Assembly (NCBI GenBank): GCA_009746045.1
Contig: RPFO01000002.1
Coordinates: 1,044,240-1,108,239, forward strand
DNA from: Mesostigma viride
Lineage: Eukaryota; Streptophyta; Mesostigmatophyceae; Mesostigmatales; Mesostigmataceae
Direction of reading: 5' to 3'
DNA: 64,000 nt
The notes below the pieces were generated by a model, which worked only from the letters and a program-made list of their open reading frames with translations, was not told the DNA's origin and ran no database searches. How positions within the stretch are numbered: position 1 is the stretch's first letter; each line of letters begins with the position of its first letter. The position numbers were made by a program, and so were the translations under genes. Shown here piece by piece: positions 11,585 through 61,180 of the stretch.

Positions 11585-11607
11585 ACGGCAACGCATTCAT
11601 ACATACC

Positions 11608-18639: not shown

Positions 18640-21600
18640 TCAGCCCCGCCCCGCCGGCCGGGCCGGCCGCCGTGTCGTGGACCTGGCTGCCGCGTTGCTG
18701 TGGCGCGTGCGTGGCCGCTGCGCCGGCGCGGGCGAGGGCTTCTGCGCGACGCCCAGCTTGGGCAAGGCCAGGTTGCTCGCCAGCTCGTCGTCGGGCAGGA
18801 CGGGCCCATTCGTGGCCTTGGGGTTGTTGGGGTACGTCCACGTGATGTAGTGGTAGTTGCGCCCGTTGGGGTATCTGGGGGGGGGGGGGGGGGGGGGGGG
18901 GGGGTGCAGAGGGGGTTGGAGAGGGGAAAGAGGACAGACATGTCAATCATTATCACTCACCTCATCGTGACCATGTCGATCGAGTTGGAAAAGTGTCAGC
19001 GGTCAGAAGCAAAATGAAGAAGCCTTGAGGCAGCCTACAGCACCAACATCAAGATTAGTACTATTTACAGCCATGCATGCGGAAAAACTCACTGCCTCGC
19101 CACCGTGTTGGCCCAGGGGGGGACTTAATGCATTAAGAAACAAACAAAAACCGCAAGGTCACCAACCTGAAACACCCACTAGTTCATCAACACTACATTG
19201 CTTATCAATATCTTTCATCAGCACTATTTAACAACCATCCCATTTTCATTATCAATATCTTTCATCAACACTATTTGACAACCATCCGACATGCCTATCA
19301 ACATCTTTCATCAACACAAATCGACAACCATCCCACATGCTTATCAATACCGTTCATCAACACTAATTTATAACTAACAACAATGCCACCATCACTCACT
19401 GAATCGCCACCGTGTCGATCCAGTTGGGGATGTTAGCATTAATGAAGCTCGCGCGGCTCGGCCCCCCCCGCTTGCCAACCTCCACCCCGTTGCTCAGGTG
19501 GCTGATGCTGTTCCAGTCGTCATCCACCTCGTACAGGTACCCATTCATCTCCATCGACAAGCGGAACCGTGTCTTCCCAGTGCGCTTGATGCCCAGCTTA
19601 AGCGTGCGCCACTGCCCGAGCGGCGACGCAAAGCAGCCGTTACCGTCGCGGTTGACGCGAGAAGGGTCGTACAGCTTGCCAGAGGCCTTGCGGTAGAAGC
19701 CGCACGGGATGTGGTTGCCGCTCTTGGGATCCTGCGGGGGGAAGGGGGGGGGGGGGAGGGGGGGGGGGCATTGTATTATGTAGTGTGAGATATTTGGACG
19801 GGATGTGGTTGCCACTCTTGGGGTCCTGGGGTGGGGTGGGTAGACCGGCATGGTGGGGGTGGGGGTGGGGCATTGTGTTATGAAAGTAAGATATTTGGGC
19901 GTTCCGGTTCACAGTGTTTGATCCGAACAGATAAAAAAATGACACCATTGCATACCAAACGTTTCCTTTCAAAGCGATTAAAAACAACGCGCTGTTAAAT
20001 ACTACCACTACCATCTAATACCTAATGTCTGGAACTATCTAATACATAATACATGATCTAATAAGTTAACGTTGGTGAAACCCACGTATTATGGGCCAGG
20101 ACAAAACCCAGGCCAGACGAATAGGAATGACCTAATATAAGTTACCGGTAAAAACCAAAAGGGGGAGGGATGGGGAGGGGGCGAAAACTTGCGTTATGTG
20201 TTGCATGAACTTTCAACTAAAATGCTAACCTAAACATTGCAATATCCAAATTGCAACCTATGAACTACAAGACAGCTGTCCCACAAAACCATATATTTCC
20301 ACAGGTCCCCACACAGCAAGTATTATTCCCCAAAAGGAGCTGCCTCACATCTCCCTGGCTCCCCTCCACCGCATACAATCCATTTCAATCCCCTCCCCCC
20401 CCTTTCCCTCCCCCCCTGCCACTCTTCCCCCTGTGTTTCTCCCCCACCCCCCCACCCCCCAAAAAACGACCCACCGGCCCACCCACCCTGCCCTCTCACC
20501 CATCTACCCCCCATGAAGCCACCGAATTCGTACTATGAAGACCTACTCTTACTACACCGCCCACCTGGTACGTGCGCAGCTGGATGCCACTCCGCCCCCC
20601 CCCCACCCATCCACCCACTCCCTAGCCTAACATATATATACCCGCAATATTCAACACCCTATCTAATGACCCCCCACGAACCTGGTACGCGCGCAGCTGG
20701 ATGCCCAGGTGCGGGTATACTCGGAAGTGGTACCCCCGGTACGAGCGGAACGGCTCGTCCGCCAGAATACGCTCCATCGACCGGTAGTCCGTCGTCTGCG
20801 CAAACCCATCCCCGCTGATGGGCGCAACCTTGTTGCTCGTCGTGTCAAAGAGGCCGATCCGGAAATCCCCCGTGCCGGCCATGCAGCTCACGCTCGAGTG
20901 CGCGCAGGGGAACGCGCCCATGCAAAACTTGCCGGGGCCAGAGTACAACTCCGCGGGGCACGAGTTGCCGCCCGAGCTCTTCCACCGAAACCCGAGCGTG
21001 ACCGAGTCGCCCACCACCGAGAGCCTCTCCGGCGCAAAGTGAGTCAGCACCATGTCAGGGTGCGTCGGGTCGTACCAGGTCATCGAGTCGTCCACGTGGT
21101 CGTGCCGCAGATTCACGCCCGACCGAGACTTGTACCAGGTCGACATGAAGGGAGGCTGGCGCAGCAATCCCCCCGCCGGGACAGCGCTGGCACCCGACCC
21201 AGACCCAGCCCTACTCGGGCCTGCCGGTGTCCATGCTGCCGCCGCCCCCCCGCCAGGTGTCGCCGCGGCAGCGCCCGGGGCCGGCTTGCGCACGACGGCG
21301 ACGACGTTCGCGCTCTCGCCGGGCACCCCACTGACCGGCTTACCCCACGTAGGGGTACTGCGGGCCGGTGCCGTCTTCAGCAGGGGACCATAGGGGCTCA
21401 CGGTGGGGGGGAAGGCGACATCGTCCACACGTTCGCTGCCACCAGCCCCACCAAACACCACCTCCGTCTCCATCGAAGCCCTCCGGTCCGACGCTGGCGT
21501 GGCCGCACCACTGCTGGCGGCTGTCGAGGGCGCATCCCTCACTTGCGGCACTTTGCGAGGCTCTTGCCCCCCCTGGCCTTGTGACCTCTCTTCCTCCGTC

Positions 21601-23096
21601 TGCTCCCTCTCCCTCCGCGGTTGCTCTCGCTCCTTCGCGTCCGCCTCCCGCTGCTGCACTACCTGCTTTGCAGCGAACTCACTCTTGACCTGCTGCCGCC
21701 CGAGCATGACCTGCCGCGCGCGTTCCGCCTGCGCCAGCACCGCCGCGTCCCGTGCCGCCGCCATCCGCTGCTCCCTCTCCACCTCCTCCCTGTCGGGCCC
21801 CTGGCGCCGCGCCGCCAGCACGGCGGCCGCGGCCGCCGCCGCCTCGGCCTCCCCCCCCCATTGCGATGTGGGCCCCCTTCCTTGAGACTCGGCCTTGCGC
21901 GCGTTGGCCAGCTCCTTCCAGCGCTGCAGCATATGGCCCACCCCAGGCAAACCCGTGGACGGAGACGTCCCATAGTTCTGCGGACCGCCAAGTGTCGGAA
22001 CGGCGGACGCCGACGCGACCGCGAGGGGGTGGGGGGCGACGACGACCGCCGGGCGGGGGGTGGCGCCACCCCCTGACTGGGTGGCCGAGGAACTACTGCT
22101 CGTTGCCGCGCCGCTCTTGATCAGCTCCATGGCTTTCTTTAGCTTGTCCAGCTGGGTCCTCATCGCCACGGCGTCGCTCGCGGAGAGCGCCTGCCGTACC
22201 GGGGCCGGGTCGGGCTTCCTGGCCCCGGGCCCCGCGTAGGATAGAGTGACCGACTCGTACCCGCGCTCCTCGGGGTACAGTATCGCGACCGTGCTGATGT
22301 ACTGGGGCGTGTGCAGCTCGACCAGGGCCTCGCGCTCTGACTTTAGGAGCGTGCGGCTGAACGCCTTGATCTCCTGCGCGAGCGCGGCCCCGTCCACGTC
22401 CAGCCAGTCGTCCCTGTACTCGTAGCTCGTCTCGCCGAGGGACATGCGGAGCGAAAATAGCGCGTCGCCCAGGCGCTCGATCGTGAGCTCCATGGGGGCA
22501 GGCGCGCCCAGGGGGAGCCCGAAGCAGCCGTTGGCGCGCGTCGCGAGCCGGTAGTCGTCGAAGAGCGTGTCCGAGATCTTGCGGTAGAAGCCGCCGCGGA
22601 GGGCCTGGGTGCCTTCGTCCACGTGGGGGAAGATGCGGAAGTGGTACCCGCGCCACGTGGACAGAGGAGGGCGGCCCATGCTCTCGGTCATGGCGCCCAT
22701 GTCCTCGGCAGGGGCGAAGCCGTTTTCCAACTTGGAAGCTTGCTTCGAGTCGGTCACGGTGTCGAATAAGCCGATACGGAAGTCCCCCGCGCCGGTCATT
22801 TCCTCGCAGGACGGGGCCCCGGTGCTAGACCATGTAAGTTTTAGTGTTACACGGTCGTGGACTTCTGACAACCTCTGCGGGGCAATGTGCGTGACGATCA
22901 TCCCAGGGGCTTTTGTCTTCCAGACCATCGCATCCTCCGACGGCGAGTACTTCAAGTCGGCCTCGCGCCCACTCCAGCTATGAACCCACTTCGTTGAGAA
23001 TGGTGGCTGGGAAACCGCGGGACTGATATGAGCATGGAACAGGACACAGAGCAATGCAACCGCTAACCGAGCTAACTGGGAACGCGCCGTCGACAT
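18640..23096 (-). CDS. Secreted two-domain protein of unrecognised family, 3 exons
   Basis: Exons are 23096-20682, 19731-19400 and 18874-18640, giving 993 residues. Splice junctions read AYQ/DPKSGN (phase 0, CAG/GTTCGT) and VAIQ/YPNGRN (phase 2, donor GTGAGT). The start at 23096 is preferred over an in-frame Met 27 codons upstream because it opens directly into a signal peptide (LAVALLCVLFHAHISPAVS). Two homologous domains span residues ~32-289 and ~648-935. Both contain FSTKW/FMSTW, MIVTHIAPQRLS/MVLTHFAPERLS, AGDFRIGLFDT/TGDFRIGLFDT, YHFRIFPH/YHFRVYPH, GFYRK, NGCF..PLG, and VAILYPEERGY/VAIQYPNGRNY. Domain 2 adds a cysteine-rich insert. The linker (~330-640) is Ala/Gln/Glu/Arg-rich with coiled-coil character. 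A beta-sandwich binding role is only a guess. Confidence 0.85.
18946..18990 (-). repeat. Echo of the exon 2 donor edge in intron 2, copy 1
   Basis: The plus strand reads ATCACTCACCTCATCGTGAC then CATGTCGATCGAGTTGG. The true exon 2 end at 19391-19430 reads ATCACTCACTGAATCGCCAC then CGTGTCGATCCAGTTGG. The GTGAGT donor is preserved in the copy. Confidence 0.75.
19081..19116 (-). repeat. Echo of the exon 2 donor edge in intron 2, copy 2
   Basis: AAACTCACTGCCTCGCCACC followed by GTGTTGGCCC matches the exon 2 end and its GTGAGT donor, about 310 bp downstream of the real junction. Confidence 0.65.
19200..19385. repeat. Intronic degenerate repeat, ~60-bp unit
   Basis: Units built on TATCAATATCTTTCATCA, ACACTATTTGACAACCATCC and CATGCTTATCAA repeat about three times in intron 2, just downstream of exon 2. 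Confidence 0.75.
19798..19833 (-). repeat. Echo of the exon 2 acceptor edge in intron 1
   Basis: GGGATGTGGTTGCCACTCTT followed by GGGGTCCTGGGG copies the true acceptor region at 19708-19740 (GGGATGTGGTTGCCGCTCTT then GGGATCCTGCGGG). The copy includes the first codons DPKSGNHIP and an AG position. Flanking intron sequence (AGATATTTGG, G-rich runs) is duplicated too, with a period of about 90-100 bp. Confidence 0.85.
20559..20592 (-). repeat. Echo of the exon 1 donor edge in intron 1
   Basis: CACCTGGTACGTGCGCAGCT followed by GGATGCC copies the true exon 1 end at 20681-20707 (AACCTGGTACGCGCGCAGCT then GGATGCC). It keeps the codons GIQLRAYQ and the CAG/GT donor, 120 bp further into the intron. 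Confidence 0.85.
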
Positions 23097-23420
23097 TGGC
23101 GTTGTTCTACGGGGTTCACCGCCTGTTAAATCCCGCACATTCCCGGCACGATCATAGACTGCATACACCAAGCTCACGTCACAAAGCCCCTTTGATCATC
23201 CTATTTCCACCTCCCGCTTCGTTCGGTGCTGACTGTCGGTTAAATTTACTACGTAGCCGATGGCGCGGTCAAATATTGCCCACGCAGGGTCGCCATAGCC
23301 GACTGAGTGAGCAAATTTCTCGAGCCCTTCTCGTGGCCAGCAGAGGGCCGGCCTATGTGGCAGGTGGCTGCCTTCCAGCACAGCCATCACCGCAGTGCCA
23401 ACTGACTTCTGGCATACAAG

Positions 23421-23960
23421 CCAAGGGGCGGTAAGCTGGCGCCTGAGATTCGGAGTGTCGTAGATTCTGATCTGGCGGAGCCAATTTTCGGAAGAACCGT
23501 TAGGTTCGCCAGAATTGGCGAAGCTTATCAGGCGGAGCCAATTTTCGGAAGAACCGTCAGGTTCGCCAGAATTGGCGAAGCTTATAAGGCCGTACACGTG
23601 AGAAAACATAGGAATAGGGGATGAAAATCCGTCAATCCATCCATACATACATACATCCATACATACATCCACCGAATTTGTCCCGAATTTGCAAGCATAA
23701 GGGTGAGGTTCTTCCGAAAATTGGCTCCGCCGTAGAGTTTCAACGGGCAAGTTGCAAAACGCACGTTACTTGATAAGGCCGTACACGTGAGAAAACATAG
23801 GAATAGGGGATGAAAATCCGTCAATCCATCCATCCATACATACATACATCCACCGAATTTGTCCCGAATTTGCAAGCATAAGGGTGAGGTTCTTCCGAAA
23901 ATTGGCTCCGCCGTAGAGTTTCAACGGGCAAGTTGCAAACACGCACGTTACTTGATATGC
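23421..23960. repeat. Tandem repeats upstream of the secreted-protein gene
   Basis: A ~57-bp unit containing GGCGGAGCCAATTTTCGGAA and GTTCGCCAGAATTGGCGAAG occurs twice at about 23472-23585. A ~190-bp unit containing GGCCGTACACGTGAGAAAAC, a CATACATC-type microsatellite and TTCTTCCGAAAATTGGCTCC occurs twice at about 23586-23955. The array ends where the Mutator-like element begins. No promoter motif can be assigned with confidence. Confidence 0.85.
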
Positions 23961-23969
23961 TTCGAAATA
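23961..23969. other. 9-bp target-site duplication, left
   Basis: TTCGAAATA directly abuts the left inverted terminus and is repeated exactly at 29411-29419 directly outside the right terminus. Confidence 0.95.
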
Positions 23970-24184
23970 GGGTTTTTGGAAATCGCATCCGGTGCTGGCC
24001 GCACCCGATGACAGATGACAATGACAAAAGGCTACGGTACGCGTCGATAAATACGGGTAACGCTTGCGAAAGGAACGGTGCGGGCCGATAAATACGGGTA
24101 ACGCTTGCAGACGCGGCGGCATGAGCCGGAAACATTGTGATCAGGGACGAAACGAACGGAAAGAGCAGCCTACTGGCTCATACT
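23970..24184 (+). repeat. Left terminal inverted repeat (215 bp)
   Basis: The arm matches the reverse complement of 29196-29410. It contains an internal direct duplication, CGATAAATACGGGTAACGCT TGC, at about 24045 and again at about 24087, as does the right arm. Confidence 0.95.
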
Positions 24185-25374
24185 ACGGAGGGCGCCGACG
24201 CACATGCCTGTGCGAACTGCTAAGTCTACTGTATCGATCGCACGCGCCCCGGCGCGTAAACTTATGGTGCGTAAGTACAAATGACAGAAGAAAATGCTGG
24301 CGCGTCAACTGCCAAGCGGAGCCTCGCCACAGGATGGAAGGCAGAAAACTTCTAAGTCCATCACCAATTTCACCATGGCCAGGGCGCGAGCCGCGGGGGG
24401 ACTTTGGCCTAGTAGAATAAATTCAACTCCACACCAAAAGAATTGACGGACCGAAAGAATTTAGCGGCATCTGTTCCAGTCAAGTAGGCTGGGGAAATGT
24501 CGATCAACGGCCGAATTAGTATTGCGTTGCGGTGCTAGCTGGTAGGACAAACTCAGAGTCAAGAAAACAGGGCTGTTAGATTGGTTCCTTCGGCTGTGCT
24601 GTGGAGGGAATCCGGCGGGTTGTGCGCAACAGTTTTCATGCCTCCGATTGATTATATTCGCATGTTAATAAGTAATTTAAACCTCCATGGACGTGCGGGC
24701 ACAAGACGACGATATTTAGGCAAATATTTTATTGCAGGACGCAGGTCCCATGGTGGCATGGTCGGTGTTATGTGTCGTAAGGGCGGGGTTGCCACTTCAG
24801 GATCAGCTGCTCCGCAGATAAAGGCATGCTTGGGATGTTGTGGTTTGGGGCAGGTAAAGGCCACTAGGTGTCCTTGGCGCTTGTGACCACTGACCACATG
24901 CCGTTCACATCATGAGTTTCTACACGGCATTGGCGCCCTTCTCGGCTGCAGGCCAATTCTAGGAAGCAGGTTTTTGCTGTGCAGTGGGGTAGGGTGAGGG
25001 GTGCCGGGTGACAACCGCAGTGGCCCGGTGTCGGCAAGATGACGACCGGGAGCGCCAGAACTGTCTGCGTTGTAGCACACAAAGCTCTATGATTCATGCG
25101 TATGTGTTGTAAATTGTAATTGGATAAGGAGCAATTGAAAAATCATGCAAATTGAGGACTTGGTATAAATTATCTGGCCTGCGCTGGTTGTTGCATTGTC
25201 TCCTTGATAAATGGTTGCTTCTTGCCTCGACGACATATATAAGCCCTCAATGGGGCACGTGAACAGGTACTCCCGGCCACTAGTTGGTCATTATCAAGTG
25301 AAACTACGTGCATTCACACATATTAATTATTAAGTGAGACAATGATGTGAGACAACTAGAGCATATCTACTAGT

Positions 25375-25581
25375 GAGTATATATCTAGGCAAGACTCCTA
25401 GGGTCTGGCACACTCTAGCTAGATAAGATAGACTAATAGGATTGTTTGTTACTAGATAGAATAGACGGGTTGGATTGTGTGCACCCATCCATCCATCCAT
25501 CCATCCCAACATCCATCCATCCATCCATCCATCCATCCATCCATCCATCCATCCATCCATCCATCCATCCATCCACCCACC

Positions 25582-25666
<85 letters not shown>

Positions 25667-25860
25667 ATCCATCCATCCATCCATCCATCCATCCATCCAT
25701 CCATCCATCCATCCATCCATCCATCCATCCATCCATCCATCCATCCATCCATCCATCCATCCATCCATCCATCCATCCATCCGTCGCGATTAATGCTCCA
25801 TGACTAGCTCCCAAACGGGAGCTAGCACGATTTTAATTAGTAAATTAATTAATCCATCTC
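25375..25860 (+). mobile_element. Retroelement 3' tail with expanded (CATC)n and (CA)n inside the MULE
   Basis: The order is a 3' UTR-like segment (AGATAGACTAATAGGATTGT), then (CATC)n, (CCCA)n, (CA)n and (CATC)n over 25483-25783. Next comes the terminal module GATTAATGCTCCATGACTAG with hairpin arms GCTCC and GGAGC, and a TTAATTAGTAAATTAATTAA tail. It is the same family as the insert at 7956-8660, here with an embedded CA array. Confidence 0.75.
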
Positions 25861-26002
25861 AGGCATGCATAGTTGTCTCACTTAATCTAGTCAATCGAAT
25901 CCATCGGGGTTGACGAATTAAACTCGTGCACACAATCATACCGCGGCTTAAGAAACAATTGATCACACCACATTGGACCGCAATGCGTTGATCAAGAAAT
26001 AT

Positions 26003-26037
26003 CAAGGAGACAACCAGCGCAGGCCAGAAATCGAGAG
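26003..26037 (-). mobile_element. 35-bp SINE-end insertion with 20-bp target duplication
   Basis: ATGCGTTGATCAAGAAATAT is present exactly at 25983-26002 and 26038-26057. Between the copies lie only 35 bp, beginning CAAGGAGACAACCAGCGCAG, the reverse complement of the constant 3' end of the SINE-like family. This looks like an extremely 5'-truncated retroposition event. Confidence 0.85.
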
Positions 26038-26639
26038 ATGCGTTGATCAAGAAATATAATTGCCTCCTTGATAATTGTGTCTAGTTATCTCAGTAAGTTA
26101 GACAAGTAATATCCTTGACTACTTCTGTGGAACTGAAAGTGGTCAACGAGCAAGAGGCTTTGAGGATGGATGAATTATGCGAACCTTATTATACCATGTT
26201 AGATTAGATCACAACAAACGTTCCAGCCGAATCTTGATAAGCATTGGAGTCCTAAAATATCTAGGCAAGACTTGGCAGAACCGACCAACTAATAACCCCA
26301 CGTGGATCAGGCCACGACCAATGAGGGTCTAAACAAGTCAGTTGACAAAGTCCAGGTCTCAAAATATCTCTGCACGTGGGAAACCTCATAACTAGCTCAA
26401 TACTCATCCAAAAGGCCTCAAATAAAATCCCAAACTATTACAAAACTCAGGATGTAACAACAAGTCAGATTTGGTTGTTACATATTGACATGTCAAGCAA
26501 ATGTGGGTCAGCAAGTATTGACTGTCCTCCCTAATGGTGGCGGTTGCTAGGGAACATCCAGTAATGTTATCCTGAGGGGGGGCACTCAGGGTTTAAGGGA
26601 ACTCCCGCAGCAACCTTGGGTTGGTACCACAATGCATGG

Positions 26640-26835
26640 CACTACCCAACGCCAGCGGTGGCGGCGGCCCGGCTAAGGCGGTGGCGGCCCAAAGGAGGCG
26701 GCGGCGGCAGCGGCGGCCCGGAGGAGGGGGCAGCGGCGGCCCGAAGGAGGAGGCAGCGGCGGCGGCCCGGAGGCGGCGGCAGCAGCGGCGGCCCGGAGGC
26801 GGGAGCGGCCCGGAGGAGGCGGCGGCGGCCATTGA
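26640..26835. repeat. GGC-rich trinucleotide repeat region
   Basis: GGCGGCGGC, GGAGGCGGC and GGCCCGGAGGAGG units repeat irregularly for about 190 bp, giving false ORFs rich in Gly/Arg/Ala. It lies within the MULE. Confidence 0.85.
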
Positions 26836-27723
26836 AACCACCACTCAGTTGGACAGCCTACACGAGCTTTCACCAACAAAGCCGGACATGTCAAACTACC
26901 AGTGAAGATTCGCTTTTTGCACCCGAGTGGGTTGAGAGCCTGCACTACTCGTCTAGCCACTAAATCGGCACATGCCAAACCAGCCACTTCAGGCTAGCTT
27001 CAACCATGGTTGAACCACCGTCAACATGAGCGGCTCAACACATGTAGTGAACGTTGGAACTGATGGGAAGCACAGATGTCCACCGGGGGAAGTGATGGCA
27101 CCACGGCTCCATCGCAAGCAAGGGCCACTAGACCTACTGTCCACACCATGATGGCTGATTGAGCTTCAAACGTTGCCAAGAATTATGATGATGGCACCAC
27201 TGATATGCCACATCCTTGATGATAAGTGTAGCAATAGTAGCCGGGCCGCAGCAGCAAGAAGATATGTCGCATGCAGCGCCACGTAGGTCCGTCCACCATG
27301 CGCCGCACCTGCAAGTGTGGAGACTAGGGCATGGTTGCATGTCTGGGGGTGGCCTTGTACATTTGGGAGGAGTTGGCGCCACATGTATAAGTAACGCAAA
27401 GAAACCAAGAACTCAAGTCCATCGTTGAAAGAAAATACACACATGAGATTCAAGGCCACATCTCACGATCATGGAGGCAGCCAACAAGCACTACAATGGA
27501 CACCACAACTCCAACATTCCATTATAGTGCTTAAAGCCAAACACCGCAAAATGTTCGGGAGCAAGACAATGGCCCGGCACATATGTTTGAGATACTCACA
27601 TTACACTACGGCAAGAAGATGTTCAATGTTGATACGAAGTTTTATGGCCGAGGAAACGCACCAACTTACAACAAACACAGATGAAATGTAGCCAGGATAC
27701 ACATGTTGTCCCGCTTAGGATTG

Positions 27724-28691
27724 TTAACGTGAAGATGGATGTGCCGCAAAGGATGTAGGCAGCCTGTGGTGCATAGAAGTTGCACCTTCCCTAATGCACA
27801 TAGCAAGCGCTGCCATGCTAGCAACATTGCCAGCAAATACCTCCAAATGATCCATGAGGGCATTGACCTCGTGAAGGTGCATTGAGGTTGCAGTTTCATA
27901 TTCGCTCATGGGAGTTGGGGTTGCGAAGAAGCACTGCCAACACTTGGAGCAGACGCGGCATTGCTAGGGCAGTTGCCGTGACCAAGAGAAGCAACGAACC
28001 CGCCCCGGCCCCGCCCGGGCCCGCTTCGGAGTACCCGTAGCCTCACCGACAACGCTTCCACCAAGAGTTGCAGAGACCTTGCGTTTTGACGTGGGTGGCT
28101 CGTTGGGATGGTGTGCTCTTTGTTTACGTGGTTGTTTTCCCCGACCACGGGGTGGAGGACCTAAAGGGTTTTCTACCAAGCGAGCAGCACTTCCATCCCC
28201 TCCGAGGGAGCGTGGACGACTAGACGGAGGTACCCAGAGCGTGAGGGGTGAATGAATTGGTAGATGGGTAAAGGGAGAGTTGGAAAGATGGACAGAGGGA
28301 TGTGGGCCCACGAAGGCTTGAGGGACCATATACCATCAGCCGATGCAGCTAGCGGCAACATGCCGACCAAGCCCGTGTACAAGGTTGCTACGTTGGAGGA
28401 ATTCTTCGTGTAGGCGGGCTGGGTGAACCGGATGTAAGGACCCTCGGGTGGGACGTCGGAGGCGCGCGCTTGCAAGTAGCAGATCGAGGACGACGGCAAA
28501 ATCGAGGACGCGGGGCCTGTGTTATGGCACAAGCCATGGGGGATATGAGTATGGACGGGCCAGTCGAGGGGGACATGCATGGGATGGGGTCTGAGCAGCC
28601 GAAGGTTGGTACCCAAAGGCGCACCGATGGCACTAACAGGATGCAGAAAAGAAAAAATGGTACCCAACATGCAAGTAAATCCAATAATCAA
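27724..28691 (-). pseudogene. Decayed coding region inside the MULE
   Basis: Minus-strand frames read GPPPRGRGKQPRKQRAHHPN then EPPTSKRKVSATLGGS (about 28160-28050). After a frame change in a GC-rich run come NAASAPSVGSASSQPQLP and MSEYETATSMHLHEVNALMD then HLEVFAGNVASMAALAM (27909-27790). The basic, proline-rich segment followed by a helical acidic one looks like a nuclear or transposon-encoded protein. I recognise no catalytic or DNA-binding domain. It may be cargo or an accessory ORF; the function is unknown. Confidence 0.35.
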
Positions 28692-29195
28692 AAGCGGCGG
28701 GTGGACAACGTGACATAGGATTTAAGTCAACACTGACGTACCATCATGGGAGCTAGACAGTGCCGAAACACAGCGACCGTGGTCGATAAGCATGCCCGCG
28801 ACAGGCGCCAACGAGAAGGCAGCAATGCAAAAGATCATCGCTACCATCGTGGCCTTTCCGCGCAGTCTGTAGTTGTCGTGGCCCGGCATCACACCCGGGC
28901 CCATCTCGACAAACTCACCAGCCAAAGGAAGTATGGCTGTTATTCAAAACGTTCGCCAAGGCTGACAAAAGTACGCGTACACCTTCTACCCTACTTCTTA
29001 GCTTTATGGACTGGGCCGTCTGGGCGGGATATCGTGTTTGAAGCCTCACCTTGGCCGTAGCGATTATTTTCCCGCCTTGTACAACGGCGTGGTGGCCAGG
29101 TTCTTTCTTACGCCACGTTCAAAATCACCGTTCATAAACACTTTACGCGGCCGCCTTGGCATGGTATGGCCCATAGGCCGCCATCTTGACCCACG

Positions 29196-29410
29196 AGTAT
29201 GAGCCAGTAGGCTGCGCTTTCCGTTCGTTTCGTCCCTGATCACAATGTTTCCGGCTCATGCCGCCGCGTCTGCAAGCGTTACCCGTATTTATCGGCCCAC
29301 ACCGTTCCTTTCGCAAGCGTTACCCGTATTTATCGACGCGTACCGTAGCCTTTTGTCATTGTCATCTGTCATCGGGTGCGGCCAGCACCGGATGCGATTT
29401 CCAAAAACCC
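29196..29410 (-). repeat. Right terminal inverted repeat (215 bp)
   Basis: Reverse complement of the left arm with only scattered mismatches, for example the G/T difference in ACGGTGCGGG versus ACGGTGTGGG. It is followed directly by the second TTCGAAATA. Confidence 0.95.
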
Positions 29411-29419
29411 TTCGAAATA

Positions 29420-30383
29420 CAAATAACTGTGTCAGTCAGTCAGCGGTCGGTATATTCCAACGCCGGGTGGCCGGCACAGCTCGGCAGAGATAATCATAAC
29501 TATTTACCGTACTACTTTTCCGTATTCCAAAGGACTTTTCCTCTTGGCCAGACTCGTGCAGCCGGCATACAATCTCTACTGTACAGCATACAATCTGTAT
29601 CAGGCCACAGTTATGTATGACCGGCGTGGTCATCCATACCATGAACTGACTGACGTGCTGCCGCCTGCCGGTCACGTCGCTGGACGCTGCCTACAACTGT
29701 AGTGCCTTGAGCTACCTGCAGTTGTGACTAATGACTAGTGACTAGTGACTAGTCCTGACTGTTTTTCCGGGGAAATGGGTATTCTTATTAACCAATGGGA
29801 ATATCGTTAGGTGAAGGGGTACCACGGATCGACCAGCTGGTTACCCAATGTGTGTAGTGTAATACGTGATAGTTTGGAACTTAGAATCGACCAGGGAAGC
29901 CGTACAGGGTGTAGGAGTTAGTTGTGACTCGTGACTTTTTCGGGGAAATGGGTATATTTTATTAGCCAATTATGGACCAAAGAGGTGAGAGGGGAAATGA
30001 GTATCAGCGAAACCTAATTAAGGTGGGCACACACACGTGTGGCGGTGACAAGTGAAAGGCTAATAGGGCGCGTTGTGACTCGTGACTCATGTGCGGCAGT
30101 GCAGCGTGGGACACAACAACAACAACAACAACAACTGACTGGACTTAACGTATCCTGTGCCAGCATACCTCCCGGAGGTCGAGAAAGGCGGCTGACTGAA
30201 AAGTGACGACGGTCCCCAGAAGCGACGAGTGACGACTGACGCGAGTGAGGTTTTATCGAAGTCGTCGACTATCGATTCCGTGGGCACGAGTCGGGCAGTC
30301 GGCAGGGTCAACCAGAAACGCATTGCCAGGAATTTAGGTGGGCTACTGAGACAAGAGTCTCGTATTCTAGTTTGAATTGAAAA
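29420..30383. other. Flank between the MULE and OLA1
   Basis: No gene is recognised. It includes a short (CAA)n at about 30115-30135 and repeated GTGACTAGTGACT. The segment next to 30384 must hold the OLA1 promoter and 5' untranslated region, but no TATA box or other element could be placed reliably. Confidence 0.5.
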
Positions 30384-36278
<5,895 letters not shown>

Positions 36279-36721: not shown

Positions 36722-36931
36722 GATGGGATGGGATATGGGATATGGGATATGGGATATGGGATATGGGATATGGGATATGGGATATGGGATATGGGATATG
36801 GGATATGGGATATGGGATATGGGATATGGGATATGGGATATGGGATATGGGATATGGGATATGGGATATGGGATATGGGATATGGGATATGGGATATGGG
36901 ATATGGGATATGGGATATGGGATATGGGATA
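36722..36931. repeat. Heptanucleotide array (GGGATAT)n, ~30 units
   Basis: A nearly perfect array, interrupted by the retroelement at 36932 and resuming at about 37434 on its other side. Confidence 0.97.
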
Positions 36932-37433
36932 TTAATTAATTAATTAATTAAACTCGTGCTCCCGTTGGGGAGTCACGGAGCACCGAAGTGCTTTTAATCC
37001 CTGTGTGTGCACTACAGGAGAAAGGGCAGAGACCCCCAGTCTCCTTCATGCCAAAGGCATGCCACAGCTGCAATCGGGCGCGGCTAGCTAAAAGGACAGG
37101 CTAACGATCCGGCAAACTGTGGGTGCAATAAGACCCATGTGAGCATATCATAGCAAGGAGCGTGGGCAAGTAATCTGAACATAGCCAGGGCGTAGCATGG
37201 CTGTACTAGGACTAGGCTATGGCTGGTTGTGTACCGTGCGTTGGCGGCACGTGACTAGGTGTGTTGGCACAGCTAGGCAACATTCTAGGCATGGCTGCCT
37301 TAGCGGCAGTGACGCCAATGGTTACAAGCTAGGGCTATTGCTATTCTAGCCCGCTGGGGGCGTCCACATCTTGTGGTTGATCATCAGGTCCCCGCCCCTC
37401 CAGTACACCTTGGGCTTCTGGGGGTCCTGCATA
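36932..37433 (-). mobile_element. Retroelement copy inserted in a microsatellite array
   Basis: Minus orientation: the coding tail QKPKVYWRGGDLMINHKMW then TPPAG and a stop (about 37430-37355), ~400 bp of 3' UTR, the GTGCTCCCGTTGGGGAGTCA CGGAGCAC hairpin, and a TTAATTAATTAA tail at 36932. GGGATAT units flank it on both sides, so the target duplication cannot be measured. Confidence 0.85.
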
Positions 37434-38060
37434 TATGGGATATGGGATATGGGATATGGGATATGGGATATGGGATATGGGATATGGGATGGGATGGGAT
37501 GGGATGGGATGGGATGGGATGGGATGGGATGGGATGGGATGGGATGGGATGGGATGGGATGGGATGGGATGGGATGGGATGGGATGGGATGGGATGGGAT
37601 GGGATGGGTGGGATGGGATGGGATGGGATGGGATGGGATGGGATGGGATGGGATGGGATGGGATGGGATGGGATGGGATGGGATGGGATGGGATGGGATG
37701 GGATGGGATGGGATGGGATGGGATGGGATGGGATGGGATGGGATGGGATGGGATGGGATGGGATGGGATGGGATGGGATGGGATGGGATGGGATGGGATG
37801 GGATGGGATGGGATGGGATGGGATGGGATGGGATGGGATGGGATGGGATGGGATGGGATGGGATGGGATGGGATGGGATGGGATGGGATGGGATGGGATG
37901 GGATGGGATGGGATGGGATGGGATGGGATGGGATGGGATGGGATGGGATGGGATGGGATGGGATGGGATGGGATGGGATGGGATGGGATGGGATGGGATG
38001 GGATGGGATGGGATGGGATGGGATGGGATGGGATGCCAGGATGGGATGGGATGGGATGGA
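37434..38060. repeat. (GGGATAT)n passing into (GGGAT)n, ~110 pentamer units
   Basis: About seven heptamers at 37434-37490 give way to GGGAT pentamers up to about 38060, with rare interruptions (GGGTGGGAT near 37606, GGGATGCCAGGAT near 38035). Open frames coding WDGMG are artefacts. Confidence 0.97.
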
Positions 38061-53651: not shown

Positions 53652-56600
53652 CTAGCCGCAAGTGTCATCGAAGACCTGGGTATCTTCCTCACGTGTGGCC
53701 GAGTCCATCCCAACTGCGCCAACATCCACCGAGGAGCGGTGCAGGGTACAGCCCCGCACTCGTTCCAGGATGAGAGAGCCCTGCTGCGCAGCAGCACTGG
53801 AACCTCCTGGATTTGTGACCCCCGCAGACGCAAGGGGCATACCCAGATAATCGCCCAAGTCCCCAGCACTGCCATCCTCACGCATGCTAGGTTGAACCTC
53901 CATGGGCTGATTCAGCCCGCCGCCCAGCAGGCACTCGGACACTGGCGCAAAGCCCCCGATGTATGCCACGTCGGCGCAGATGTATAGGAACCGGTCACTG
54001 TAGTGCATCTCGGGCGAGCGAATGTCCACGATCGGTGTCACCGGGAGGGGGAACCCTGCTACGTGCGATTTTCACCAGGCAGCCAGGGCGGGCATTATAA
54101 GATATATCCTTCACTCTGATGTAAGTATATATAATTTTAAAGTTTTATCCTATTATACATTTATTGCCTCACTTAATATCCTATAATACATTTTGAAAGT
54201 TCCCAACGAGAGCGCAAAAGTCTAATAACAAAACTCGAGAAAGGCCGACTACCAATACACTGTGCAACGGTGGTGGCCAAGCATGGCAACCAAGACTAAA
54301 AAAATACAGTCGCAATGCAGCAACAGCTAGTACCACAGCTCCTGCTAGAATCCTAAGTTATGAATAATACCATCCTAGACAACAGCAAACCGTATCACCG
54401 AATGCTGCTGCAGCTGTACGACAAAACATTATTGATCCTAGCTGCTGCCAGGGATGGACCATCCTGTATGACCTGGCATGACTTACCGCTCCCCACGACT
54501 CTCCCCTCAACCATTGTGAACCCCCCATGACCACCCCTTACGACCCTACGCCGCCTAAAAATAATATCAACCCCCACCAACAAGCACGACACAACCACCA
54601 GCCTGCATGGAATGCCAGAAACAATGACACAAAGCATCAACATGCCATCGATTCACCCAAAACGTACCATCAATGTTCAAGCCATGCACAAGCAAATGTT
54701 CAAGCCACGAATACAGCCATCCACAAGCCACAAATACAGCCATCCACAAGCCACAAATACAGCCATCCACAAGCCACGAATACAGCCATCCACAAGCCAC
54801 AAATACAGCCATCCACAAGCCAGGAATACAGCCATCCACAAGCCACAAATACAGCCATCCACAAGCCACAAATACAGGCATCCACAAGCCACGAATACAG
54901 CCATCCACAAGCCACAAATACAGCCATCCACAAGCCACAAATACAGCCATCCACAAGCCACAAATACAGCCATCCACAAGCCACGAATACAGCCATCCAC
55001 AAGCCACAAATACAGCCATCCACAAGCCACGAAGATCTGCTACAAATACAGCCATCCACAAGCCACAAATACAGCCATCCACAAGCCACGAATACATCCA
55101 TCCACAAGCCACAAATATCTGCCACGAATACAGCCATCCACAAGCCACAAATACAGCCATCCACAAGCCACGAATACAGCCATCCACAAGCCACGAATAT
55201 CTGCCACGAATACAGCCATCCACAAGCCACAAATACAGCCATCCACAAGCCACGGATACAGCCATCCACAAGCCGCAAATATCTGCCACGAATACAGCCA
55301 TCCACAAGCCGCAAATATCTACCACGGATATATGCCACGGTCGCAAAAAATGTGTCGTACGCAGTACGCACCATACGCCAGCCGCCCGTTGACAAGTGGC
55401 AACAGCACGTCGCGCAGCATGAGGGTCACGGGCCGCTGCACGAGCGCTACGTTGACAGGGCCCACGTTGGTCCATTTGAGCGAGAGGGCGAGCGAGACGA
55501 GACGCACACGCGCGGTCACGTTGTACTCCCGGATGCCAGCAGCGCCGTCGAGGGACACGTTGGCGGCGACGGCAAACGCGGAGACGGCCGTGCCGTTGTC
55601 CAGCAGCACCTGCGAGAGAAAGGAATAAAAAAGGAGATGATACACGAATGTATGAATTTTACCCCCCTTTTCAGCGTGTGCCGGCCGTGCCCTTGTCCAG
55701 CAGTGCCTGCGTGCACAGGAGAGAAAAAGAGAAATAAAAAAGAAGAAACGCTTCAGATAGTTCTTCTTAGCGTGCGCAGGTTGTACCCTTGTCCAGCAGC
55801 ACCTGCGTGCGCCAGGAAGAAAAAGAGAGTCCATGAAGTTAAGGGGGGACCAGAGAACGGACGGTTCAACTACTACTCCTTGCATGATCAGCAGCCATAG
55901 TGATGTCGTTGTCCAGAAGCACGCGCTACTAGGAGGAACGAAACACATAGCGGGAGAGCACCTGCTAATAGGAGGATGCAACACATAGCAGGAGAGCACG
56001 TGCTACTAGGACTGAAACGCATAGCAGAAGAGCATATGCTCATAGGACAAAACAACTCTGCGGTATCATTTCCTGCCCCATGTCCCATTGGTTAAAGACG
56101 ATCCGCTCGCAGCCGTGCGGTTGTTCAGGAGTACCCGTTTGCACAGCGCGTTCAGAGGCAAAGCACACGACATTAATTTTGATGATGAATTCTTGCACGT
56201 TTGAGGCGAGAAGAATCTGCCAATACATATAACCCATATATGTACAACCAATGTATAATACATACTACTACATGCCTTTGCCATTGCCGAGCAGCACCTG
56301 TGTGCACAGGGAGAGGAGACTTCCGCAGATCATCCACCGGCGCGTCGCCGCACGAGTGCCGTCGTGACAGTCCCTTCTAATCTTATTTAAACCGATGACT
56401 GTATCAGCCGTATGATTAACCACCCACCTGCACATCCAGCTGCACGAGCGCCGTCATCTCGGCCCCTTGTACGAGTATAGTGACCCCATAACAGCAGCAG
56501 CAACCACGATGAACCACCCACCTGCACATCCAGCTGCACGAGCGCCGTCATCTCGACCACTTGTACGAGTATAGTGACCCCATAACAGCAGCAGCAAACA

Positions 56601-59600
56601 TGAAGAACCGCCCACCTGCACATCCAGCTGCACGAGCGCCGTCATCTCGATGCCCACCGCCACCACCTGGATCACCGGAGGCTCCAGCGCCGCCACATCC
56701 ACCACCATCGGTGCGTCCGGGTACGCGGCCCACAGGCCAGGCACCACCCAGCGCCAGGACTTGGTGTTGAGCGTGAGGGGGACCTTGTCCGGGAGGCGGG
56801 TCACGCGCATGGCCAGGGACCCTGCCGCCTGGAACACGGCCGCAGCGCTGTGGAGGACAGCGTCGGTTACGGCCACCGTCACCTGGGGAAAGAACGGGAC
56901 GGAGAGGATTGGGGAAGGGAATTGGGGGGGAAAGCGGGGGGGAAGCAGGGGTGGACAGCAACAGGGTGACAAGCGGGGGTGGAAAGCAGCTGGGTGGGGG
57001 AAGGGGCAGGGACGGGACGGGGGGAAATTATAGGGAAGGGCATGGATGTTATGGTGGGCATGGGGGTGGGAGTGAAAGTGGGTGGCGGGTGGGAAGAGGG
57101 GGGGGGGGGGGGGGGGGCATGGGGGGGGGGGCATAAGAAAGAGGCGGGAGGCAGGGCTGGGTGGCTGGGTTGAGGGAGTACTGTAGTAGCCTACATAGCC
57201 AAGGCAGTCCACCGTCCGAATCGTTAGTATTAATGATTAATCTTAATTCTGGACGGTCACCACCTGAAAACGCTACATAAAACCAAAAAAATGCAAATAA
57301 TCAATTCCCGAGTGTGCTCTGCCGTCTGCTTTCTAGCGACCAAACAAACACAAAGTGTAATTAAATATTCTTTGGCTGACAAATGTGCTTTACTGGCAGT
57401 AACAACGCGGCTGCCAGCTGGTTTATACCACAAAAACAAAGAATTATTGAATCGCACAGGCAGCTCAACCGTTGTTCGGTAAGCAAACAAACAAACTAGA
57501 TATTAATAAATAGGGCGGGCCATGTAGTACTTCTTCCAACCAATACAGCGTAATTATCTAATCCCCCAGGGCCTATCGGCAAAATTCAAACTAACAATGT
57601 GGACGATGTATCCTAAGGCATACTTCACAAAAGCAGGTTTCCTTCGTGTTCTTGACCGACTTGACGGCGAGACAAATCAGCACACTAACAAGCGACACCT
57701 GTCATGGCCCCCATGGAACTGAGATGGAGGCTAAGCACCGGATGCGGGATCATAATCAACACTAAGATATACCCCACAAAGAATCACGTTGTACCACATA
57801 TATCAGAGTTCGGGACACCCCATTGATAAGGTTATCCTACTATCAGGTAGGAGGCCATGTTAGATCAAATAATAAGACTACCATGCTATCAAGGAGGCCA
57901 TGTTGGATCAAATAATAAGACTACCATGCTATCAAGAAGGAGGCCATGTTAGACCAATTAATAAGGTTACCCAACTATCAAGTAGGAGGCCATGTTAGAC
58001 CAATTAATAGGATTACCATGCTATCAAGTAGGAGGCCATGTTAGACCAATTAATAAGGTTACCCTACTATCAAGTAGGAGGCCATCTTAGACCAACCAAT
58101 AAGGTTACCCTACTATCAAGCAGGAGGCCATCTTAGACCAACCAATAAGGTTACCCTACTATCAAGCAGGAGGTCATCGTACACAGCAGATGCCACATTC
58201 ACCTTCTTCCCCAGACGATTGCTGTAGAAAAGATGCCACACACATAGTTCATTGCCAAGCCCAAGACCATCCCAGTGCGTGCAGGACTGGTCCGCTAGTG
58301 CAAAGACCATAACAGTGCGCGCAGGGCTCATCCACTAGTTTAAGTCCATGCCAGAGCGGGCAGAATATCACCCCCTGCTTCTACGGTATTCCTCCACAGC
58401 TGCATCCTAGACCTGAAGCGATGCCATCAACCGCCGTACCATCTTGCCCGCCCCCTGGCAGGGTGGTGCCGGCGGTATCTGCGGGGGGGGCGGCCCTGGG
58501 GGGTCCACGTCGTGCCCTTTTTGGAAGAACTCGCCGCGCGTGCCCACGGTGAGGGTGTCGCGGGCCAGGAGGGGGTCCCCGACAAGGTCCACCCGCAGGC
58601 CGATGTCGCCCTGAACGGGGATCACCGTGGACAGCTGGCGGAGCACGCCGTCCAGGGAGGCGACGGCTGATTGGACGCCGTCGGCGATGCCGCCGTTAAT
58701 GGCCTGGGGACGGGCGGGTGGGCGGCAGTGACAGGTGTAAGTAGGCAGGTGTACAATGCTAGTGGCTAAAGCCAAAACAGTGGACGGCTTCTTGTACATG
58801 GGCATGCCTACAAAGAAGATGCCATTAAACATGAATTATGAAACAACCCAATGAAATTATGAAAGGTAACGCATCTGTAGTTATGAAAAAGGGCATGATA
58901 TATACAGTCGGGGTGTGCTGCCACACATCCTACCGAGGTGATGCGGTCGGTGAACAGGTGGAGGAACATCGAGTAGAGCCAGGAGGCGCCCCCCGCCAGC
59001 TGGACGTCCTGTTGCGGCAATTCAAAGAGGAAGGACAGGGCGGTACGCAAAGGAGGGGACAAGTAGACAGGTAAATTAAGTAGATAAATACACATATAGA
59101 TACTACTTCAAATAAATAGATCATTAAAAAAAACAACAAGCCCCCTCCAGCTGGACAGCCCGCTGCAAGCTAGACGGGAAAACAGTATCCAAAAATACAA
59201 TTAGGGGAACAAAACTTCTAAATCGGCCACCAGCTGGGCATTGAGGCAAAGAGAGGTTAGCACCTTACAACACACACACACACAGACACAAAAAAAAAAG
59301 GCAGTGAAAAAGGAGAGCACCGTGGAAGGAGACAAACAAGAACAGGAACAAAAAGGACAGGAAGAACAAGGACAGGAACACTACGGACAGGGGCAATAAG
59401 GACAGGAACAATAACGACAGGAACATTAAGGACAGGAAAAATAAGGACAGCAACAACAAGGACAGGAGCAAAATGGACAGGAACACTAAGGACAGAAAGT
59501 AACGCATCACAGCCAGCAGGGCGTCCTGCGGCTACCGGCTGATGCGTACGCGGCATGACTACAGACGTGGCCAAATACTACTGAAACGGCATGCCAGCTG

Positions 59601-61180
59601 GGTGTCCATCTCTGATGCAAACTAAGGGTTGCTTTAGTAGAAGTGGATCACATGAAAATATTCAAACCCCTATGGTTGCTCTATTAGAAGTGGATCACAT
59701 GAACACATGAAAATACCCTATATGTATACTACTAGATTCATATACATCTATGGTTGCTCAAATAGAAGTGGATCACATGAACATAGTGGATGACCTGAGC
59801 ATCAGTCATGCCGTACATCTTAGAACACAGAGCATGTTGAATAGGAGATGGATTCGATAGGGGGTGTAGAAACTGAACGATAGTCAAATGATGAAACAAA
59901 AGGGATTGAGGATGGCTCGCTGCCATGACGTGCGTGGGGACATGCAACAAAATGGTGATCCAAGAATAGCAACAATCCACAACATCAACTAGAGCATAGA
60001 TAAACACTGAAGAATCGTGGAGGTGATTGCAGTGACAACAACATGATGACAACATCAGTGCATGCGTGACATACGGCACAGTAAGCAAACGGCTAATGCC
60101 CAAACTACGAATATCGGCAAGGCGTGCCTCACAACAGATCCATCAGGGCATGCCAGTAGGGAGGGAAATTGAAATCAACCGCCAATCTGTGTGTGCTGGG
60201 AAAGAGTTTCTAACAGGGCAGCTGCCAGTGAGGGGAAATGCTGCATAGCGCGTACCATTCAGGTCAGAAAGGCTGCACCCTAGCTTTATCATTATTTACA
60301 TGAAAACATGAGACAATCATTTACATTTAATTATTATCTACTCACAGACAGGCCATGGCAGGTAACTCTCCTTGTCTCTCATCCTGATAGCATTCAGACC
60401 TGAACATGGTACAAAAAACGCTGCATCTAATGTTGAAAACATTTCTGTCAAGACAATCCTTTGAACTGACGTGAATTATGCATAATACTTACCATCACGA
60501 TGGTAGCTCTAGGGGCTAGCAAAACTAAAGGCGAACATGGCCATCCCTGGCGGACACAGGTTTTCCAGACCCGGCGGGCAACGCGACGAAATCCTCACCA
60601 ATTCCCAGCCGTCCGTCTCAAAATTAGATACCGCCAACTGCAGGTGGCCGTCCATCTCGTGCAGCGCCACGTCGGCCCGCGCGTTCATGTGAAGAACCGT
60701 CGCAACAGCGGTCCCTTTGTCGCGGACGGGGATCCACATCCACGTGCCGTTATACTCCCAGTGCAACTGGACGGTGCAGATTTTGATGTGAGCCAGCACA
60801 GAGACGCCCGCGTCCGTGAGCGTCACGTTACTGTCGCTGACGGTAATCTCTGTGACAACTATCTGAGTCAAATTAAAATCAAACATTGCGCCATACTGCG
60901 CGAATGATCGCTGGATGTCGGGTACGCTGAGCGGGACGAGCATCTCATGCAGGAGACAAAGTGCCACCTCTTTTGCGTACTGAATACCGTCCACCGACAA
61001 GGTGACTTTTACACCTGGTTGATCCGCGTCCAATTCTGGAGTTTTGTTATCTATCAGAGGCGCCAAGTCCTGCAGTGGCACGACGGGAATTGACCGCGTC
61101 TCGTCCCATCCTCGTATGGCGTACGCGCACACCGCGAGTACACAAAAGATATAAATTCGCAGCATCTGTTTCCAGTCCAT
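53652..61180 (-). CDS. BPI/LBP-family secreted lipid-binding protein, 6 exons
   Basis: Exons are 61180-60599, 59008-58934, 58703-58413, 56882-56616, 55609-55372 and 54055-53652: 1,857 nt, 618 residues. The first four junctions are phase 0 and the last splits a Gly codon (LAYG/FPLP). A signal peptide (IYIFCVLAVCAYA) is followed by GVKVTLSVDGIQYAKEVALC and VPDIQRSF. The family landmark GGASWLY is in exon 2, then DGVQSAVASLDGVL and VDLVGDPLL (exon 3), VVPGLWAAYP (exon 4), and LLPLVNGRLAYGFPLP (exon 5/6). Several N-x-S/T sites fit secretion. BPI/LBP proteins bind lipopolysaccharide or other lipids in two apolar pockets. The C-terminus is about 100 residues longer than in plant relatives, and the second conserved cysteine before GGASWLY is not apparent. 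Paralogue assignment is uncertain. Confidence 0.93.
54703..55330. repeat. 23-bp minisatellite in BPI/LBP intron 5, ~25 units
   Basis: Unit AATACAGCCATCCACAAGCC plus ACA/ACG. Several units are replaced by a variant with ATCTGCCACGAATAC. All frames on both strands stay open for hundreds of codons (IHKPQIQPSTSHKYSHPQAT; CGLWMAVFVACGWLYLWLVD), which is an artefact of the unit. Confidence 0.95.
55683..56305 (-). repeat. Iterated echoes of the exon 5 acceptor edge in intron 4
   Basis: The real junction at 55594-55622 reads CCGTTGTCCAGCAGCACCTG CGAGAGAAAGG on the plus strand. Degenerate copies follow at about 55686 (CCTTGTCCAGCAGTGCCTGC GTG), 55787 (CCTTGTCCAGCAGCACCTGC GTG), 55905 (CGTTGTCCAGAAGCACGCGC), 56112 (GGTTGTTCAGGAGTACCCGT) and 56282 (CATTGCCGAGCAGCACCTGT). 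Shorter AGAGCACCTGCTAATAGGA motifs occur between 55940 and 56040. Spacing starts near 92-100 bp and then widens. Each copy retains an AG acceptor plus codons like VLLDNGTA. Confidence 0.85.
56423..56660 (-). repeat. 94-bp tandem triplication of the exon 4 donor edge
   Basis: CCCACCTGCACATCCAGCTG CACGAGCGCCGTCATCTCG occurs at 56423, 56517 and 56611, with 94-bp spacing. On the minus strand this is the end of exon 4 (EMTALVQLDVQ) plus its GTGGG donor. The 56611 copy is the real exon end; the other two lie in intron 4 and are identical over that segment. Confidence 0.95.
57090..57132. repeat. Poly-G runs in BPI/LBP intron 3
   Basis: Two G homopolymers of about 20 and 11 bases with a short spacer; on the gene's coding strand they are polypyrimidine, about 210 bp upstream of exon 4's acceptor. 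Confidence 0.9.
57815..58175. repeat. ~45-bp minisatellite in BPI/LBP intron 3, ~8 units
   Basis: Units contain CAAGTAGGAGGCCATGTTAG ACCAATTAATAAGGTTACCC TACTAT with graded variation along the array. A second, degenerate ~45-bp set (AAGACCATCCCAGTGCGTGC AGG) follows at 58255-58360, next to exon 3. Confidence 0.95.
59141..59166 (-). repeat. Echo of the exon 2 acceptor edge in BPI/LBP intron 1
   Basis: CCCCCTCCAGCTGGACAGCC CGCTGC copies the exon 2 start region at 58990-59016 (CCCCCGCCAGCTGGACGTCC TGTTGC). A weaker match, GCCAGCTGGGTGTCCATCTC TGATGC, lies at 59594. Confidence 0.65.
59330..59495. repeat. ~15-bp minisatellite in BPI/LBP intron 1
   Basis: AAGGACAGGAACAAT-type units, about ten copies with drift. 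Confidence 0.9.
59622..59785. repeat. Short repeat in BPI/LBP intron 1
   Basis: GTTGCT..AGTAGAAGTGGATC ACATGAA occurs three times at uneven spacing (about 59628, 59676, 59754). Confidence 0.8.

Follow-up and report, generated by a model that had tools for sequence, protein, structure and literature searches.

In the genome of Mesostigma viride, a decayed copy of the exon edge is present in the intron at roughly one edge in twelve, as a rule at a distance of about 100 bases. Stated most conservatively, low-copy echoes of this kind are in threefold excess at exon edges, an excess that depends on the masking of multi-copy arrays and about half of which is expected from retention. When all local duplications are counted, exon edges show no excess of their own, which refutes an edge-specific enrichment at that level. 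The echoes probably derive from small local duplications of a kind common throughout non-coding DNA, which survive at exon edges as the adjoining splice site stays in use.

The window, i.e., the whole stretch of DNA analysed, comprises 64,000 nucleotides of Mesostigma viride (RPFO01000002.1, positions 1,044,240-1,108,239, forward strand) from an assembly with 2243 contigs and a total length of 439.9 Mb. The window contains three spliced genes, whose models were rebuilt (Table 1). OLA1 was modelled from PDB and Pfam matches, with splice sites read off the sequence and the frame, and the BPI/LBP gene from two Pfam matches, one of them under the gathering score; in the analysis scripts, the splice coordinates of this gene were 1-2 bp off at acceptor 5 and at donors 3 and 5. 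The model of the secreted-protein gene relies on its open frame and splice sites, and a Pfam search of this gene gave no match. Judged by eye, its translation (20622-23195, minus strand) seems to hold two copies of one domain, the first in exon 1 and the second spread over exons 1-3. OLA1 found no relative among viral contigs, and among plasmids it matched bacterial YchF-like proteins alone (best identity 43%). Pfam searches of 20 further frames in the window gave one clear match, a reverse-transcriptase fragment at 4778-5293 (RVT_1, E 2e-13). Between the secreted-protein gene and OLA1, terminal inverted repeats of 216 bp with 99.1% identity (23969-24184 and 29196-29411) bound a stretch of ~5.4 kb that is probably a DNA transposon or a non-autonomous derivative. 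Long simple or short-period arrays are unusually numerous (8206-8526, 11607-13463, 25485-25782, 31857-32245, 32847-33234, 36728-36932, 37433-38059, and 54701-55317), including ATGGG repeated 115 times and TGACGCA repeated 55 times, and several long reading frames are spurious products of a CCCT-like pyrimidine tract of 1.9 kb.

Table 1 Exons of the three rebuilt genes and local copies of their edges, in window coordinates.
Feature	Position	Strand	Evidence or remark
Secreted-protein gene, exon 1	20682..23096	-	open frame from ATG, donor CAG/GTTCGT
Secreted-protein gene, exon 2	19400..19731	-	last base 19400, donor CA/GTGAGT
Secreted-protein gene, exon 3	18640..18874	-	frame joins with CA/A
OLA1, exon 1	30384..30456	+	the three joined exons translate as OLA1
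OLA1, exon 2	32501..32594	+	donor CC/GTACGT
OLA1, exon 3	35231..36278	+	PDB OLA1/YchF matches, E down to 9e-102; Pfam YchF-GTPase_C
BPI/LBP gene, exon 1	60599..61180	-	Pfam LBP_BPI_CETP, E 2e-4, under gathering score
BPI/LBP gene, exon 2	58934..59008	-	splice sites and frame
BPI/LBP gene, exon 3	58413..58703	-	splice sites and frame
BPI/LBP gene, exon 4	56616..56882	-	Pfam LBP_BPI_CETP_C, E 6e-7, frame 56457-57236
BPI/LBP gene, exon 5	55372..55609	-	splice sites and frame
Echo of secreted-protein gene exon 1 donor	20563..20588	-	25/26 identical over 24 exon and 2 intron bases, spacing 117
Echo of secreted-protein gene exon 2 acceptor	19798..19882	-	85 alignment columns
Echo of secreted-protein gene exon 2 donor, first copy	19087..19139	-	score 45, 0/500 shuffles
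Echo of secreted-protein gene exon 2 donor, second copy	18952..18988	-	retains GTGAGTGAT
Echo of OLA1 exon 2 donor	32718..32768	+	26 exon and 17 intron bases, 8-bp gap, score 35, 0/500 shuffles
Tandem array (94 bp x2.5) with BPI/LBP exon 4 donor and copies	56414..56650	-	TRF and alignment
Echoes of BPI/LBP exon 5 acceptor	55682..55828	-	55682-55746 (65 columns)
Marginal echo, BPI/LBP exon 2 acceptor region	59141..59156	-	15/16 bases; score 27 vs maximum 25 in 500 shuffles

A local copy in the adjacent intron was found at a score of at least 35 for six of the 17 exon edges in the window, spread over the three genes, and none of 500 dinucleotide-shuffled introns reached any of the six scores; with a slightly different alignment statistic, five edges have a copy at a score of at least 36. 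All six alignments take in GT or AG, and the copies are spaced 94-310 bp from their originals in introns of 525-2636 bp. The earlier note, which had described echoes in all three spliced genes as lying inside the adjacent intron and usually retaining the splice dinucleotide, is borne out on these points. The individual echoes it had placed in the secreted-protein gene were recovered as well: that of the exon 1 donor (placed at 20559; E 5e-4 in the whole-window self-comparison), that of the exon 2 acceptor (19798), which is a piece of a tandem duplication of 19704-19800 with 19798-19901 that includes intron sequence, and the two of the exon 2 donor (18946 and 19081), where the second copy of Table 1 scores 39 against a maximum of 25 among 500 mononucleotide shuffles. 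The echo of the OLA1 exon 2 donor, noted earlier at 32718, spans 32718-32768. For the BPI/LBP gene, three echoed edges had been claimed, and those of donor 4 and acceptor 5 hold; the third can only be acceptor 2, where the match is marginal. The best copy of donor 4 (56463-56555, 93 bp) lies inside the 94-bp array, which also holds intron sequence, and the acceptor 5 echo belongs to a wider duplication of 55585-55732 with 55682-55828. At the remaining 10 of the 17 edges nothing rises above the shuffles. The window frequency is higher than a genome-wide 28/311 (one-sided binomial p=0.003), in a comparison of statistics that are not identical and with a window selected for its echoes.

Exons elsewhere in the genome were located by protein-family matches (kinesin, chaperonin, dynein, and OLA1-like) and thus independently of repeats. 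Profile matches across the genome included 129 to kinesin exons, 44 to dynein exons, and 33 to light-harvesting protein genes (PF00504), as would suit a photosynthetic alga with flagella. A total of 124 exon-level matches were entered and 120 were placed, and of 240 possible edges, the 198 that were domain-internal and had a candidate splice site were retained, on 56 stretches covering 224,901 bp. Left out were loci that are intronless or bacterial-like (L002, L006-L009, and L036), the window itself (L001), L005, L085, L038 as a near-copy of L037, and L020, L028, and L032 as mostly covered by later stretches. Contig C2011 (1.49 Mb; 772-776 kb region of L002, and L036), on which an unbroken GroEL-like frame accompanies a YchF-like gene that matches over nearly its full length with one stop inside, looks bacterial, either from an endosymbiont or a contaminant. 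Within each of the contig groups C2/C622, C1641/C887, and C805/C1104/C1926, matches agree exactly in score and in profile range, which suggests haplotypes left uncollapsed by the assembly or recent duplicates. A recently amplified family is represented by five light-harvesting genes on two contigs (C1457:2339969-2879318 and C1459:79653), whose match scores are all the same.

With simple repeats masked and arrays retained, a copy that extended 10 bp or more to both sides of the junction was found at 18 of the 198 edges, at 414 of 4564 non-coding points, at 4 of 1524 exon-interior points, and in none of 990 shuffles. Echoes thus recur genome-wide, as the earlier note had expected, and all 18 edge copies lie on the intron side, yet the edge and non-coding rates are the same (9.1% vs 9.1%; ratio 1.00, stretch bootstrap CI 0.55-1.68). 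The comparison that the note had proposed as decisive, between edges and random 60-mers, gave the same answer and went against a border-specific process: for 60-mers placed on match ends at 58 loci, copies within 700 bp at a score of at least 40 occurred at 11/116 edges, 10/577 exon-interior positions, and 327/3237 non-coding positions. At a score of at least 28, the same loci gave 26 edge copies, every one of them on the intron side. The exon-base statistic, which uses the 45 exon bases beside the junction and takes its background from the same geometry at non-coding pseudo-junctions, likewise gave edge-to-background ratios of 0.8-1.0 without masking. Local direct duplication is general in non-coding DNA, where without the array mask 9-11% of points are matched by a local copy.

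Non-coding matches are dominated by multi-copy arrays. Arrays of at least three copies were masked, a step adopted after the equal rates had been seen, so that the threefold excess it reveals is post hoc. Junction-spanning copies were then found at 14/198 edges vs 97/4136 background points (ratio 3.0, CI 1.5-5.5), and the exon-base statistic gave 24/307 vs 344/14188 (ratio 3.2, CI 2.1-4.7). It is in this narrower form, as low-copy echoes with arrays masked, that the border preference proposed earlier stands. By side, donors reached 16/150 (ratio 4.4, 2.4-6.8) and acceptors 8/157 (2.1, 0.8-3.5), a difference that is not significant (Fisher p=0.089). Predicted exons outside the first set gave 6/59 donors and 4/56 acceptors; these exons came from a codon-usage script trained on known exons, 14 of 83 scoring under 25 being dropped, and some are false, as the predictor made 45 predictions on reversed sequence vs 223. 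The ratio stays similar with the background restricted to within-gene (3.2) or GC-rich (3.1) sequence, and it moves with the mask: 0.8 with none, 2.0 with arrays of at least five copies masked, 3.2 with at least three, and 3.8 with at least 2.2. Spacing has a median of 102 at edges and 114 in the background, with interquartile ranges of 94-125 vs 76-215.

The masked data also locate the signal along the exon. A junction-centred 30-mer has an intronward copy at 15/175 junctions vs a background of 1.2% (196/16523; ratio 7.2, CI 3.6-12.7), and none of 3420 comparisons with introns of other genes attains its score. The profile of such 30-mers has its maximum at the junction and a mirror maximum 75-105 bp into the intron; for 30-mers that begin 60 exon bases from the junction, the frequency of intronward copies is down to 1% (2/197), vs 8.6% at the junction itself.

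In masked stretches, 94 non-redundant local pairs were found, of which 48 lie outside known or predicted exons, 46 have one copy touching an exon, and none has both. The three classes into which the pairs were divided are alike in median length (42, 37, and 41 bp) and median spacing (95, 106, and 109 bp). By eye, several of the 48 non-exon pairs resemble further edge echoes, e.g., near dynein exons on C1945, C1679, and C1; as these are likely unlisted edge echoes, any error in the background would be an overestimate. Exact tandem units occur among the echoes, one being a 70-bp unit repeated without mismatch at a spacing of 70 bp (C2189:671601). At edges, 9 of 24 copies are contiguous with their original (gap of at most 10 bp), compared with 95 of 149 sampled non-coding cases, although erosion of the intron part could open such gaps. 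In an exon-anchored test, 20 echoes among 175 donors (window included) and 10 among 178 acceptors were compared with their originals. For the donor echoes, identity falls from 83% across the 25 exon bases to 78% at +1-2 (65% at +2), and on to 62% at +3-6, 42% at +7-15, and 34% at +31-60; the acceptor echoes have a similar profile. Mismatches in the exon part fall 19/19/29 over the codon positions and 44 of 67 are non-synonymous; the intronic copy is therefore not under coding constraint. Inside the aligned pairs, conservation of the exon part does not exceed that of the intron part (50/457 vs 115/1065 and 64/566 vs 29/309 mismatches). In the C1579/C2189 paralogue pair the introns no longer align, leaving the echo undatable.

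According to the explanation we favour, the genome would continually make short local direct duplications in non-coding DNA, with matches of ~40 bp mostly 70-200 bp apart, possibly through fill-in repair of staggered breaks or slippage. Where such a duplication falls over an exon edge, the spliceosome would keep using the splice site beside the exon body, so that the extra copy becomes intronic and the protein is unchanged, and we infer that selection purges duplications within exons. Uniform local duplication combined with this tolerance of splicing would give intron-side copies, retained splice dinucleotides, and no copies within exons. The intronic copy would then decay neutrally, and the pair would remain recognisable longer than two free copies since the original is fixed in its exon bases and its core splice motif. 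A visible echo would accordingly comprise some tens of coding bases and lose its similarity about ten bases into the intron, as is observed. In simulations of this retention, an excess of 1.6-fold (10% indels) to 1.7-fold (20%) was obtained with synonymous changes allowed, and of 1.8-1.9-fold with the exon fully frozen. On this model, about half of the 3.2-fold excess is expected from one copy being held constant by selection, and retention would suffice for acceptors and fall short for donors, the lower bound for the latter being 2.4. The similar length and spacing across pair classes, the intron-side position of 18/18 copies, and the exact tandem units among the pairs all count in favour of local duplication with retention. 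Against it stand the donor ratio, which exceeds the simulated values, and the excess, for which retention predicts a rise with age that is not clearly seen (2.8, 3.1, and 3.7 in falling identity classes, the freshest class holding 6/307). The lack of better conservation in the exon part also counts against it, as does the contiguity of 9/24 edge echoes, many being not visibly tandem. Finally, the copied exon stretches are short, and randomly placed 100-bp units would include more exon.

These points leave some room for duplication targeted to the border itself, a possible but rather unlikely alternative in which breaks or template switches favour 5' splice sites, e.g., through transcription pausing or R-loops, and the intron receives copies of the donor region more often than of other DNA. 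The junction peak of the 30-mer profile with its reciprocal at +75 to +105, the donor ratio on exon bases alone, and the predicted donors outside the first set would all fit such targeting, as would an enrichment already present in the freshest class and the narrow spacing at edges. However, the excess vanishes with arrays counted, donors and acceptors do not differ significantly, and part of the excess is retention; moreover, with arrays retained, high-scoring copies of exon bases are rarer at edges than in non-coding DNA (score of at least 60: 2/198 vs 355/6684). The stronger proposal that 5' splice sites are hotspots of local duplication, at which breaks or template switches coupled to transcription or splicing place a copy of the junction ~100 bp into the intron, so that introns lengthen at their 5' ends and a fossil copy now exists for about one in nine donors, appears doubtful. 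A border-specific process is possible rather than demonstrated.

It could also be speculated that the copies are selected decoys, retained since a second donor or acceptor tunes splicing. Alignments crossing the junction do retain GT in 32/32 and AG in 11/12 cases, but this count is biased by the ends of local alignments. When anchored in the exon, GT conservation in the copies does not exceed that of the exon part and declines further at +3-6. A function of the intronic copies is unlikely from their sequence, as they show neither coding constraint nor extra conservation of the echo splice site, and selection for decoys is accordingly an improbable account. More improbable still is that the echoes are scars of intron origin, left when an intron was gained by tandem duplication of an exon segment. 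Mutations of the same kind are described in other eukaryotes (PMC3443670 and PMC2891723). Yet that model sets copies at both intron ends, with a spacing equal to the intron length, whereas here donor and acceptor echoes are separate and a copy lies ~100 bp from its own junction in window introns of 230-2636 bp; at the six echoed window edges, too, spacing falls short of intron length. Chance similarity or a shared splice consensus may explain the weak matches of 15-20 bases at the 10 window edges without an echo, which are at shuffled level, but is hardly credible otherwise and is refuted for the listed echoes by the controls (0/500, 0/990, and 0/3420).

Under local duplication with retention, the ordinary reading, exon edges would be preserved witnesses, recording local duplications whose other non-coding traces have decayed; they can preserve this record because one copy is held constant. 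If donors are truly duplicated more often, splicing or transcription would leave a mutational mark on genomes, and growth of introns at their 5' ends could be tested in any genome with long introns. The shortness of the copied exon stretches may indicate at what length the exon context of a second donor begins to impair splicing.

A literature search found no paper on exon-edge copies within introns as a genome-wide feature, which is not proof of their absence from the literature, and we know of no other report of junction copies inside their own introns. Small tandem duplications have reportedly been traced to fill-in repair of staggered breaks by Vaughn and Bennetzen in 2014. The earlier suggestion that this is not a described phenomenon was too strong, as small tandem duplications and their role in intron evolution are covered in PMC2891723, PMC3443670, and PMC8355091. 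The passages considered from these papers mention no genome-wide occurrence of existing junctions copied within their own introns.

Several known systems resemble the echoes in part. In PMC8355091, small tandem duplications arise via fill-in repair of staggered breaks (CST/Pol alpha-primase) and form short head-to-tail direct repeats of tens of bp in ordinary DNA. Echo copies are likewise in direct orientation and a short distance apart, as seen in direct-strand alignments, and some are exact units, but many are non-contiguous with the original. Minisatellite arrays dominate the local repeats of this genome, and BPI/LBP donor 4 lies in one; most edge echoes differ from them in being two-copy and degenerate. 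The gain of new introns from tandem genomic duplication, as reviewed in PMC3443670 and reportedly also treated in PMC4974935, is similar in that a duplicated splice-like stretch alters the exon-intron layout and the protein stays the same, whereas in Mesostigma viride the duplicated junction already exists, its copy lies in the intron that it bounds, and no new intron results. Tandem duplication has also been applied, together with intron sliding, to intron positions in Drosophila in PMC2891723. There, as here, coding sequence is duplicated beside a splice site and one copy turns intronic; the intron positions described are novel and the duplication footprints mostly decayed, unlike the unchanged positions at which the echoes of Mesostigma viride are found.
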